Shown: positions 14,956-26,128 of the stretch, in pieces
Position numbering within the stretch: the stretch's first letter is position 1
How the letters are laid out: each line of letters opens with the position of its first letter
From: an uncultured Pseudomonadota bacterium
Lineage (GTDB): Bacteria > Desulfobacterota > Binatia > Binatales > Binataceae
Direction: 5' to 3'
DNA length: 48,815 bases
Assembly (NCBI GenBank): GCA_937889395.1
Contig: CALAOW010000057.1
Span: 1 to 48,815 of the forward strand
Made by a program: the position numbers and the translations under genes
The notes under the pieces: generated by a model
Databases searched by the model: none
Told to the model about the DNA's origin: nothing
The model's input: only the letters and a program-made list of their open reading frames with translations

Positions 14956-16002
14956 ATGGATCAGGCGTTCACCAGGCAGAAAATCAAGGAATTGCGCGCG
15001 ATGGTCGGCGAAGGCGATCGCGTTGCGATCGTGCTGCAGGACGATCCCGATCCCGACGCAATGGCGAGCGCGATGGCGCTGCGTACGCTGCTCGGGCGCA
15101 ACAAGCAGACCACGCCGCTGTTCGCGTTCAAGCCGGTCACGCGACCGGAAAATCGCACGATGGAGCATCTGCTGGAGATCGAAATCCAGCCGGCCGATAC
15201 GGAGGAGCTGCGCGCGTTTGACAAGATTGCGATGGTCGATGTTCAGCCGCCGTACTTCGGCGAGAAAATTCCGCGCGCCGATATCGTGATCGATCATCAT
15301 ACCGGCTACCCCGGCGGCGCCGCTGCGTTCGAGGACGTGCGTACGAAATACGGCGCGACTGCGACGATCATGACCGAGTACCTGGTGACGGCGGACGAAA
15401 AAATCAGCGAGCGGCTGGCGACTGCATTGCTCTACGGAATTCGCAGCGACACTTTGGCGTTGTCGCGCCGCGTGACCGACGACGACCTGCAAGCGTTCAC
15501 GCGCCTGGTTCCGCTGGCCAACTACAGTATGCTCCGGCAGATCGATCGTCCCGAGCTGCCGCTTAGTTTTGCGCAAATCCTGGCGCGCGCGATGAAACGG
15601 ATGGTGGTCAAGGATCGGCTGGTCGTGCTCAATCTCGGCCACGTCGAGCGCGACGACCTGATCGTGCAGATGGCGGACTTCTGCCTGCAGTTCGAGGGCG
15701 TGGCGTGGGTGGCGGTCGCGGGCAAGCTCAGCGGCAAGCTGGTGATAAGTGTGCGCAACCATGGCATGAGCGGCGACAACGCGGGCGAGGCGGTGAAGAA
15801 TCTGTTCGCCGATATCGGCAGCGCCGGCGGCCATCGCAACATGGCCAAAGCGGTGATCCCGTTGCGAGCATGGCGGCGGCGCGAGGGGACGACCCGCGAC
15901 TCGCAAATCGAGTCGCGGCTGCGCGAGTTGTTCAGCGCGTGGATCAAGGGCGAGGCCGACGATGGCGCGGTTCGCAGCACGCCCGGCCGCAATGGCAACT
16001 GA
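14956..16002 (+). CDS. DHH-family phosphoesterase (NrnA/RecJ-like)
   Basis: The 348-residue protein has the DHH superfamily layout. Motif I is LQDDPDPDAMASA (about residues 27-39), motif II is AMVDVQP, motif III is VIDHHTGYPGG, and a C-terminal DHHA1 domain carries the substrate-binding GSAGGHRNMAKAVIPL. Enzymes of this class hydrolyse nanoRNA, pAp or cyclic dinucleotides with two metal ions. The usual His at the start of motif I (HxNPDxD) is not obvious here; Gln/Asp occupies the place. Two Asp metal ligands remain. The start ATG follows a short spacer, and the gene is divergent from the Zn-ribbon/lysS pair. The specific substrate is not predictable. Confidence 0.85.
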   Translation: MDQAFTRQKIKELRAMVGEGDRVAIVLQDDPDPDAMASAMALRTLLGRNKQTTPLFAFKPVTRPENRTMEHLLEIEIQPADTEELRAFDKIAMVDVQPPYFGEKIPRADIVIDHHTGYPGGAAAFEDVRTKYGATATIMTEYLVTADEKISERLATALLYGIRSDTLALSRRVTDDDLQAFTRLVPLANYSMLRQIDRPELPLSFAQILARAMKRMVVKDRLVVLNLGHVERDDLIVQMADFCLQFEGVAWVAVAGKLSGKLVISVRNHGMSGDNAGEAVKNLFADIGSAGGHRNMAKAVIPLRAWRRREGTTRDSQIESRLRELFSAWIKGEADDGAVRSTPGRNGN

Positions 16003-16021: not shown

Positions 16022-16051
16022 TTGGCAGCGTCCTAATTTGCGCATTAATAT
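16022..16051 (+). promoter_or_regulatory. Candidate sigma-70-type promoter of the protease cassette
   Basis: TTGGCA (16022-16027) and TAATAT (16046-16051) are separated by 18 bases, about 90 bases upstream of the first cassette gene. This is a motif match only. Confidence 0.45.
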
Positions 16052-16140: not shown

Positions 16141-17013
16141 ATGAGCATTATTGTGTCGCTGACTGTCCCGGATGCCGTGATTTTGGGTGTGGATAGCACC
16201 GTGTCACTTCCGGGCCTTCCAAAGGGAGCGGATATCCCCCTTCCCGCAAACGTGATCGAATGGGCTCGGGGACCAGCGATTAAGGCTTACGACGGCGCAG
16301 AGAAGTTATTCGCCTTGGGAAACCGGCCAGTTGGTGTTGCCATTTATGGCACTACAATGATTGGTGATCGCTCGATTCGCAGTCATCTACACGAGTTTGT
16401 GACCAAAGACCCCGATGGAGTTTTAAGCCGAGAAACATCACTCCAGCAAATCGCGGAAGGGCTCAGAGCATTCTTTGCAAATCTCTACGAGAAAGTCGTA
16501 AAACCTTTCCTACAGGATTTTCGAAAGATGCCATTCGACCAAATTCCAGTGGACCAACGCCCCGGATTTGGTTTTGTTATAGGCGGTTATTCAGCCAATG
16601 CCTATTTGCCTGAAGTGTTTCATGTGTTCGTCCCAACTGTTTCCGAGCCGCAGGTCATGCGGAGACAGCGAGAACTAAACGCCAATTGGTTTGGTCTTTA
16701 CGAACCGATCGACCGTTACTACAAGGGCTATACGCAGCCAATCCTGAATTCTCTTCTTGAACAATTCGAGAAGATTCACGGCTCTGCTCTATCAGAACAG
16801 AATCGAGCCGATATCAATGCCCTGCTCGCGACATATGAGTATCCAAATACTATTTCCTTGATGCCTGTATCTGTAGGTATTGAGTATGTGCGTTTCTTGG
16901 TCGGGCTAGTGATTAATCACTACCGCTTTGATGTCGGCATACCTCTTGTCGGCGGCTCTGTAAGAATCGGGAAAGCGACCTGCGCCAGCGGTACGTTTGA
17001 AGTTCTCGAATAA
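16141..17013 (+). CDS. Proteasome/HslV-like Ntn-hydrolase family protein
   Basis: The protein has 290 residues. The start MSIIVSLTVPDAVILGVDS aligns well with HslV and proteasome beta subunits. After Met removal Ser2 would be the N-terminal nucleophile (Thr1 position), Asp18 falls on the catalytic Asp17 position, and Lys55 in AEKLFALG fits the Lys33 role with an insertion before it. VGVAIYGTTMIGD matches the next strand pair. I start at 16141 because GGGGAG lies just upstream and the chemistry needs this N-terminus; an ATG at 16114 would bury the Ser. The protein is longer than HslV (~175), with a helical C-terminal half. It heads a three-gene, A/T-richer cassette with a DUF5678-like gene and a retropepsin-like gene. 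Activity is inferred. Confidence 0.7.
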   Translation: MSIIVSLTVPDAVILGVDSTVSLPGLPKGADIPLPANVIEWARGPAIKAYDGAEKLFALGNRPVGVAIYGTTMIGDRSIRSHLHEFVTKDPDGVLSRETSLQQIAEGLRAFFANLYEKVVKPFLQDFRKMPFDQIPVDQRPGFGFVIGGYSANAYLPEVFHVFVPTVSEPQVMRRQRELNANWFGLYEPIDRYYKGYTQPILNSLLEQFEKIHGSALSEQNRADINALLATYEYPNTISLMPVSVGIEYVRFLVGLVINHYRFDVGIPLVGGSVRIGKATCASGTFEVLE

Positions 17014-17032
17014 TGCAAATGGAGTATCTGTC

Positions 17033-17401
17033 ATGCTAAATCCAAGTCAAGCCGGAGGAGCTACCGAGGCAATGAACTACAATTCATGGCTCCCCAGTAT
17101 TCCCACTATGGGGAAGCCCTCCGGCCCGACGAATCACCCTTTATCATTCGGGTGTGTAGATGAGCCGACAATTGAAGAACCGAAAGATGATTCTTTGGCT
17201 TGGTTTGCGCGCAACCTAGAGATGCTTAGAAAGCGATACGGCAGGCGATGGATATTAATCAAGAATAATGACGTTGTTGACTCTTCCGATGATCCAACCG
17301 AGTTGCAAACGGTTGCGGAAAAGCAGGGTATCGTGAGCCCATACATAACCAAGATTCCACCTTCATCGACTAGTTGGAGAACGGCATACTGTAGCCGGTG
17401 A
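17033..17401 (+). CDS. DUF5678-like protein
   Basis: The product has 122 residues. The N-terminal ~55 are Pro/Ser/Gly-rich and probably disordered. The C-terminal part (MLRKRYGRRWILIKNN, then a turn and VAEKQGIVSPYITKI) fits the small DUF5678 fold: a helix, the pattern Y.G+W, a strand pair (here ILIKNNDVVDSS), a helix and a last strand. GGAG at 17021-17024 supports the ATG at 17033, 19 bases after the previous stop. The stop codon overlaps the GTG start of the protease gene (GTGA), so the two should be translationally coupled. The function is unknown; an adaptor or substrate role for the neighbouring proteases is a guess. Confidence 0.65.
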   Translation: MLNPSQAGGATEAMNYNSWLPSIPTMGKPSGPTNHPLSFGCVDEPTIEEPKDDSLAWFARNLEMLRKRYGRRWILIKNNDVVDSSDDPTELQTVAEKQGIVSPYITKIPPSSTSWRTAYCSR

Positions 17402-17814
17402 AACCGTTCAGCAAAGACTTCACAGAAACCATCAAATTCACGTACATCCCCGGGGAAGGGGAAGAATGGTTTCCAATTGTCGAGATTAGCCTTGTCAAGC
17501 CGACGGGTCGGCGAATTCCGCTGAAGTTGTTGTTCGACACGGGCGCCACCCAGATCACCTTACGAGCGGATCATGAACAGTTCTGTACTGATGTTGAAGA
17601 TGCGGAGTTCGATACGGCAAATGGCACGGTCCGGGGCCGTGTCGCCAAGAATCAGACCATAGAGTTTCTCGGAGTCGCTACGACTTGCGATATTGGACTT
17701 CTCAATTTACGCGAGCGTGTCTGGGCGGGACTCTTTGGTCGGGATTGCTTCAGGTCTTTCGGCTTCGGCTTTTGGGAGAACGCGCGCGAGCTTTATGTGA
17801 CCTCGAAACCATGA
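17398..17814 (+). CDS. Retropepsin-like aspartic protease
   Basis: This 138-residue, single-lobe aspartic protease candidate has LLFDTGATQITL at about residues 44-55, the D-T-G-A active-site motif preceded by hydrophobic residues. Near the end GLFGRDCFRSFGFGF matches the hydrophobic-hydrophobic-Gly strand before the last helix. Such enzymes work as homodimers, each chain giving one Asp. No signal peptide is present, so a cytoplasmic location is expected. It starts at a GTG overlapping the upstream stop by 4 bases. It may cleave the DUF5678 partner or a shared target. The family call is good; proteolytic activity is inferred. Confidence 0.78.
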   Translation: MKPFSKDFTETIKFTYIPGEGEEWFPIVEISLVKPTGRRIPLKLLFDTGATQITLRADHEQFCTDVEDAEFDTANGTVRGRVAKNQTIEFLGVATTCDIGLLNLRERVWAGLFGRDCFRSFGFGFWENARELYVTSKP

Positions 17815-17897
17815 GGGCGGAGCCGACCTTCGACGCGCGCACGCCGCATTCCTTCTGCACCCTCACCTACCGACCGCCGCTCCCGGGTCAGCAGAAC

Positions 17898-25137: not shown

Positions 25138-26037
25138 TTAAATGGATCGCACGGCTCGAGGCGAGCCCCGGTCGGCCAACGCTTCATCAGCGCTTGCGAC
25201 AGTAGGCTTTCTCAATTCCATTAGGTAGTCGTCGAAAGCCAACACCCGAAATTGCGCAATCGGGACGCGAGCCGCCCATGTCCTGAGCCGCTTTTCGCGC
25301 GTTGCAAAAACGTCCGCTCGCGCGGCGGCTAGGATAGCATGCTGTAGATCCCTTGAGTCTCCGATGTCTACTTCTTGCGGCTGCTTTTGCAGAGCCTTCG
25401 CATGAAAATACGACAAAGCGATTCCAATCGCCATTCTGACACTCTTCAGCTTGAGCAGCCCGTTGATGCCTCGCCGATTGCAGGCGTCTAGTACGCCGAC
25501 CCGCCGCGCGTAATTCTCGGCGAACCGAACGCATTGATTTTCCCAAACGAACTCAAAAGATATCCCCCTGATCTGTTCGGTATCGCGCCACATCTCCGCA
25601 CGTCGATTCATCATTCTATGAAGAAAGCTTTCCTTCTGATGCTTTGCCTCTTGAATCATCGATAATCGTGCTTCACGATTTTCCTCGGCTTTGTTGAGCA
25701 GAAGCGTCTCTACCCGCGCTGATGCGGTTAGCAAATCTTCGCCCGACAAAACTGGACTCGTGGCCCGTCCACACTCCGCGTAAGAAACGAGATCATCTCT
25801 TAGAAGCATATTCGTGTCTTTTAGGAATCGACTCCGATCAACAAGCCTCAGGAGGCGTCGTATTCTTGGGAACACCTCGTCTTCCGCGGACTTCTCCATA
25901 GCGGCAAGAAGCTCCTCAAGGTTGACGGCGCTGAGCAGTATCGAGATTTGCTTCGCGTCTATCGCCTTTCGGAGGATTGTCTCCTCATCTGCTGTCAGAT
26001 GACGAAAGACATTTGTGTCGAAATAGACGGTCGTCAT
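25138..26037 (-). CDS. PIN-domain protein, orphan
   Basis: The protein has 299 residues from the ATG at 26035-26037; a GTG at 26052 is an equal alternative. VYFDTNVFRHL supplies the first PIN Asp and Thr-Asn, VNLEELLAAM the next acidic residue, and near the C-terminus DSRDLQHAILAAARADVFATREKRL gives the last acidic residues in the usual helix-strand context. A long charged helical insertion (about residues 75-185, rich in Lys/Glu/Arg) separates them. PIN proteins cut RNA or DNA and are often toxins, but no antitoxin gene is adjacent. It is lower in GC than its neighbours, consistent with transfer. Confidence 0.8.
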   Translation of the reverse strand: MTTVYFDTNVFRHLTADEETILRKAIDAKQISILLSAVNLEELLAAMEKSAEDEVFPRIRRLLRLVDRSRFLKDTNMLLRDDLVSYAECGRATSPVLSGEDLLTASARVETLLLNKAEENREARLSMIQEAKHQKESFLHRMMNRRAEMWRDTEQIRGISFEFVWENQCVRFAENYARRVGVLDACNRRGINGLLKLKSVRMAIGIALSYFHAKALQKQPQEVDIGDSRDLQHAILAAARADVFATREKRLRTWAARVPIAQFRVLAFDDYLMELRKPTVASADEALADRGSPRAVRSI

Positions 26038-26128
26038 GTTGAGTACGGGCACCGCTCTAATGCTCAGCCGAGTTCAAGCTCTAAGGCTATAATCAGTACA
26101 GGCGCTGCTGGTCGAGTGAGCAGTCGCG

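Follow-up and report, generated by a model that had tools for sequence, protein, structure and literature searches.

A three-gene cassette in a recent insertion

The window, that is, the entire 48,815-nucleotide stretch of DNA analysed, carries three co-directional genes with intact frames between 16141 and 17814 (Table 1). Genes 1 and 2 are separated by 19 bases, and genes 2 and 3 overlap by 4 bases (GTGA), in agreement with the tight plus-strand spacing described in the original prediction. A small upstream gene that overlaps a downstream effector gene within one operon is the layout of type II toxin-antitoxin loci, and the cassette has this layout. Its G+C content is 49% in gene 1, 49% in gene 2 and 53% in gene 3 (51% over the whole cassette), compared with 61% in the remainder of the window, confirming that it is richer in A/T than its neighbours, and gene 1 has the lowest G+C content among the window's 36 long ORFs. 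The promoter that had been proposed in front of gene 1 exists as a sequence match, but such sigma-70-like matches number three in total against 1.6 ± 1.3 by chance, a count near chance.

The cassette lies between the gene for a 348-aa protein (14956–16002) and a transporter gene (from 18043), both of which are present in sister species. The segment is absent from two of these (G002 and G004), where the flanks are contiguous, while in two others (G001 and G006) the same spot is filled by unrelated sequence, 2.2 kb and 0.8 kb long. The cassette is thus a single, recent insertion of ~1.95 kb at a variable site, and it was acquired horizontally. Among the 41 genomes of the order that were searched, gene 1 is present only in the host genome. 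Two short stretches recur elsewhere in that genome: a 24-base stretch at 17855–17878, downstream of the cassette, is repeated exactly on contig C9, and 17782–17818 is repeated at 89% on contig C36. Elsewhere in the 61% G+C window, a minus-strand ORF (25138–26052) has a G+C content of 53% and is possibly a further acquired gene.

Table 1. Coordinates of the cassette genes and associated features, in window positions
Feature	Position	Strand	Remarks
Inserted accessory segment	16014–17985	+	borders ± ~15 bases; missing from sister species
Sigma-70-like promoter candidate	16022–16051	+	TTGGCA-18-TAATAT, 9/12; just within the insertion
Gene 1, proteasome-like Ntn hydrolase	16141–17013	+	ATG start, 290 aa
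Gene 2, DUF5678-like middle protein	17033–17401	+	ATG start, 122 aa; antitoxin position
Gene 3, retropepsin-like aspartic protease	17398–17814	+	GTG start, 138 aa; effector position

Gene 1 encodes a proteasome-like Ntn hydrolase

Gene 1 matches no Pfam family and no PADLOC defence family, and a single-protein search of plasmids, viral contigs and genome contigs returned no close relatives. We reached its family through weak phage and class-level matches. The predicted active site comprises Ser2, directly after Met, together with Asp18, Lys55 and Gly70. Asp18 aligns with proteasome Asp17, while Lys55 and Gly70 were equated with proteasome Lys33 and Gly47 by order and conservation. Asp18, Ser19, Lys55 and Gly70 are invariant in an alignment of 47 family members, and of 91 distinct members 90 have Ser or Thr immediately after Met, while the start of the remaining one is mis-set.

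The AlphaFold model of the protein, built with 46 relatives, has a pLDDT of 91.3, and its structural matches include Anbu (Z 21.0) and 20S beta subunits (Z 20.6). Residue 2 of the model superposes on residue 1 of mature Anbu and 20S beta-type subunits. In addition, the PDB matches of a ten-member alignment of the family are almost exclusively proteasome subunits, and in several of them residue 1 of the mature beta subunit aligns with profile position 2. The conserved Ser2, Asp18 and Lys55 and the fit of the model to the proteasome beta fold thus verify the HslV/proteasome-like N-terminal chemistry and the Ntn fold that had been predicted for gene 1. The enzyme should become active upon loss of Met, with no propeptide to cleave, in line with the account that Fuchs et al. 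2021 give of proteasome homologues of this kind (PMC8665760). The host carries a separate PF00227 gene (HslV-like) elsewhere in its genome.

Genes 2 and 3 belong to a recurrent DUF5678–retropepsin unit

Gene 2 consists of an N-terminal extension of ~66 residues followed by a DUF5678-like domain (residues 67–110). It scores 20.4 bits against DUF5678 (PF18929; E 4.5e-4), just below the Pfam cut-off of 23.2, and is therefore named DUF5678-like, while its closest relative, in genome G449, lies above the cut-off with 39.9 bits and aligns with it across the DUF5678 domain (E 7e-10). The earlier assignment of gene 2 consequently holds as a likeness, with the protein itself under the family threshold. 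Gene 3 alone is likewise below Pfam cut-offs; a profile of gene 3 and six relatives matches Ddi1 (E 3e-8), FIV protease and rickettsial ApRick. Both retropepsin signatures, D-T/S-G-A and hydrophobic-hydrophobic-Gly, are conserved as LLFDTGA and LFGRD, upholding the retropepsin motif first read from this gene. The model of gene 3, made from the single sequence, has a pLDDT of 34, too low for judging the fold.

Among 390 genomes of the phylum, 32 carry DUF5678 genes, and a retropepsin gene directly follows, mostly overlapping, in 26 of the 30 loci inspected (L170–L199). One more pair was found in another phylum-level sample (L220). DUF5678 and retropepsin genes thus form a widespread, stable two-gene unit of their own, for which we found no describing paper in the open-access literature. 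The window pair is like these bicistrons in gene order, overlapping frames and families, and differs from them by the Ntn gene in front, which the bicistrons elsewhere lack. The retropepsin nearest to gene 3, 40% identical and also from G449, is likewise encoded behind a DUF5678 protein with an extension, and an unrelated gene of 87 aa precedes that pair. An identity of the first gene of the G449 locus as DUF3467 was considered and rejected, there being no Pfam match at E 0.01.

Many relatives of gene 1 precede a small protein and a toxin

The family of gene 1 comprises ~90 distinct relatives across prophages, bacteria and archaea, with Ntn loci in IMG/VR (21) and in GTDB genomes (80 of 113), the latter ranging over Helarchaeota, Methanomicrobiales, Acidobacteria, Actinobacteria, Chloroflexi, Bacteroidetes and Planctomycetes. 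A frequent layout, found in many phyla including archaea, consists of the Ntn gene, a gene for a small protein (70–137 aa) and a toxin gene (89–158 aa). The toxins are of the PIN/VapC, Fic/Doc, MazF/PemK and RelE/ParE types, and Pfam matches bear out the PemK/MazF, Fic/Doc and PIN assignments. A rule governed the listing of downstream genes, and the '+2' ORFs were picked blindly. Toxin domains are present in 28 of 64 '+2' ORFs (PIN 13, Fic 8, PemK 5, ParE-like 1, RelE 1), and these domains are absent from the 25 families listed for 112 flank ORFs. The resulting enrichment has a Fisher P value of 4e-15, or 3e-10 when five unseen flank toxins are allowed for, values that overstate independence because the eleven PIN loci from Acidobacteria are closely related.

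Across the effector-bearing entries of the Ntn tree, the type of effector has switched at least 10 times, which argues that the Ntn gene was joined to whole antitoxin–toxin pairs. The branch of the window Ntn protein is long, and its placement in the tree is unsure. Of the 91 Ntn genes, 56 lack an identified effector, which indicates that the Ntn protein has some effector-free role, and some Ntn genes have just a small partner, or none. The middle proteins of Ntn cassettes match no Pfam antitoxin family. We discarded a shared Y-x-Y-like motif in them, first suggested by eye, for which an ungapped search gave 384 versus 366–380 with shuffled sequences.

The 29 toxin cassettes have median gaps of −4 and −4, a middle protein of 93 aa (70–137) and an effector of 135 aa, and the spacings and sizes in the window fit these values. 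Unlike the window, these relatives have known toxins in the third-gene place; gene 3 lies outside the recognised toxin families, and retropepsins are not a known toxin family. The window's DUF5678–retropepsin pair stands, matched in spacing and size, where other cassettes have antitoxin and toxin, and we read the two proteins accordingly as antitoxin-like and toxin-like. The overlap in DUF5678–retropepsin bicistrons also resembles that of antitoxin–toxin pairs.

The exact combination of Ntn, DUF5678-like and retropepsin genes was found once, in the window: 0 of 103 other Ntn loci contain a retropepsin, and a retropepsin search of 390, 297 and 296 genomes gave no further locus with both proteases. 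Recurrence of all three genes together at further loci, a check proposed with the original prediction, is accordingly not observed in these searches.

A toxin-antitoxin-like reading of the cassette

We estimate a probability of about one half that the cassette represents a toxin-antitoxin-like module in three parts that moved horizontally and combines a dedicated proteasome-type protease with a retropepsin effector. We infer that the retropepsin of gene 3 would be the effector, which if uncontrolled would be toxic by cleaving host or phage proteins. Gene 2, with its extension and DUF5678 domain, would be the inhibitor or antitoxin of gene 3, produced first and from a frame that overlaps that of the effector. 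Gene 1 would be the dedicated peptidase governing the fate of gene 2; upon a trigger, for example phage infection, it would degrade or trim the inhibitor and so free the effector. That the Ntn peptidase sets the stability of the antitoxin is the economical reading. It is usually proposed that general proteases release toxins by degrading the antitoxin (PMC8165232), and chaperone modules are a known case of a third gene on which the fate of the antitoxin depends (PMC5105189, PMC6377645). Furthermore, Ntn relatives are cargo of prophages, satellite phages and plasmids, homes that suggest a conflict between elements or with phages. Several findings count against the module reading: the single occurrence of the trio, the middle proteins outside all Pfam antitoxin families, the many Ntn genes with no identified effector, the unsure tree position of the window Ntn protein, and the DUF5678–retropepsin pairs that in most genomes function with no Ntn gene beside them.

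The two proteases are best taken together as a protease regulator and an effector, because DUF5678–retropepsin units exist separately and the small-protein and effector pairs behind Ntn genes are interchangeable and include effectors that are non-proteases (MazF, VapC, Doc, RelE). On the same grounds the 'self-contained proteolytic system' or cascade of the original prediction is not favoured, while its protease classes, the cassette nature and the 'conflict-related' option hold; a proteolytic cascade is probably the wrong frame for the cassette.

An Ntn gene ahead of a small protein and a toxin would suit either sign of control, and the Ntn enzyme could instead be a safety device that degrades free toxin or processes the antitoxin to maturity, so that loss of the cassette or a phage block of the enzyme kills, as in addiction or guard systems. 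Many Ntn genes have a small partner and no toxin, as for a protease–inhibitor or protease–substrate pair, and the toxin-antitoxin-chaperone modules are tripartite with a protecting third gene (PMC5105189, PMC6377645). We nevertheless regard such a device as unlikely, as the usual protease substrates are antitoxins and not toxins (PMC8165232).

A chance neighbourhood, in which one insertion hotspot gathered a DUF5678–retropepsin unit for processing and, independently of it, an Ntn cargo gene, would account for the single occurrence of the trio, for the DUF5678–retropepsin and Ntn genes that are each found alone, and for the unrelated genes at the insertion spot in sister species. It appears improbable in view of the 19-base gap, the 4-base overlap, the shared strand and composition, and the one-to-one match between the window layout and the 29 toxin cassettes. 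Finally, a processing cascade, in which both proteases act in sequence on the DUF5678 protein or other substrates with no toxin-antitoxin logic, is very improbable: the catalytic residues are kept in Ntn hydrolase and retropepsin alike, but the third gene in Ntn relatives encodes an RNase, a Fic enzyme or a RelE-type toxin, not a protease.

Relation to known systems

The window Ntn protein resembles the proteasome homologues PMI-1 to PMI-6 (Fuchs, Alva and Lupas 2021, PMC8665760) in its proteasome-like fold, in Thr/Ser after Met without a propeptide, in the Asp17 and Lys33 equivalents, and in an extra segment between helices 3 and 4. The two groups are also alike in their spread over bacteria, Euryarchaeota and phages (PMI-4); this taxonomic spread and the insertion between helices 3 and 4 make the window protein a candidate member of the PMI subgroup. 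Fuchs et al. 2021 report no function-suggesting genomic context or co-occurrence for PMI homologues (PMC8665760), a description from which the Ntn family differs by the toxin-antitoxin context found here. The fold is common to Anbu and HslV/20S beta as well, with only ~9–18% identity in structural alignments and no Pfam match.

As proposed for the window, a third gene beside an antitoxin–toxin pair decides the antitoxin's fate in toxin-antitoxin-chaperone modules, and there an antitoxin extension confers the dependency; the window DUF5678 protein is also extended. The third component of the window is a proteasome-like peptidase and is placed first, while these modules have a SecB chaperone. 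We found no report of an Ntn–toxin link in open-access papers, consistent with the earlier statement that no system of this composition had been described.

Extended to the whole family, the toxin-antitoxin-like reading would tentatively define a widespread new tripartite class, possibly anti-phage, in which a proteasome-type peptidase releases interchangeable effectors including a retropepsin toxin, and DUF5678–retropepsin would be a new toxin-antitoxin family. The retropepsin effector, unproven as such, would be the most novel part of the module. The layout places many orphan proteasome homologues in a functional context for the first time, the cassette suggests that retroviral-protease-type enzymes act as bacterial effectors, and the module is a testable one, with its own protease instead of Lon or Clp.

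Other members of the Ntn family

Pseudomonas aeruginosa phages, including LESphi2, carry a lone Ntn relative at the prophage end (L006, 287–1309; L007, 5001–6023), annotated as 'proteasome subunit beta' or hypothetical, which adjoins the integrase in L007 and is lysogenic cargo. Similar cargo is present in Stenotrophomonas, Providencia and Porphyromonas phages and in a Streptococcus satellite phage. A distinct chromosomal clade in Beijerinckiaceae/Hyphomicrobiales ('MTIVISISVQDGVVLASDSAVE'; L132, L135, L141–L147, L150) is tight in the tree and lacks small-protein and toxin partners, and perhaps has a different, housekeeping role. At the effector position of three Ntn cassettes (L078, 5918–6613; L079, 6879–7547; L073, 4228–4698) there is a 150–230-aa protein marked by an LSxxCDLE stretch, which makes it a candidate for a new family of effectors. 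Longer Ntn relatives of ~410–480 aa, of the MTAEI/MTSEV type, are encoded on Rhizobium and Mesorhizobium plasmids (L038, L039, L040, L043), and in 4 of 4 a multiubiquitin and ThiF (E1-like) operon lies a few genes away, a possible bacterial pairing of ubiquitin-like and proteasome-like components.
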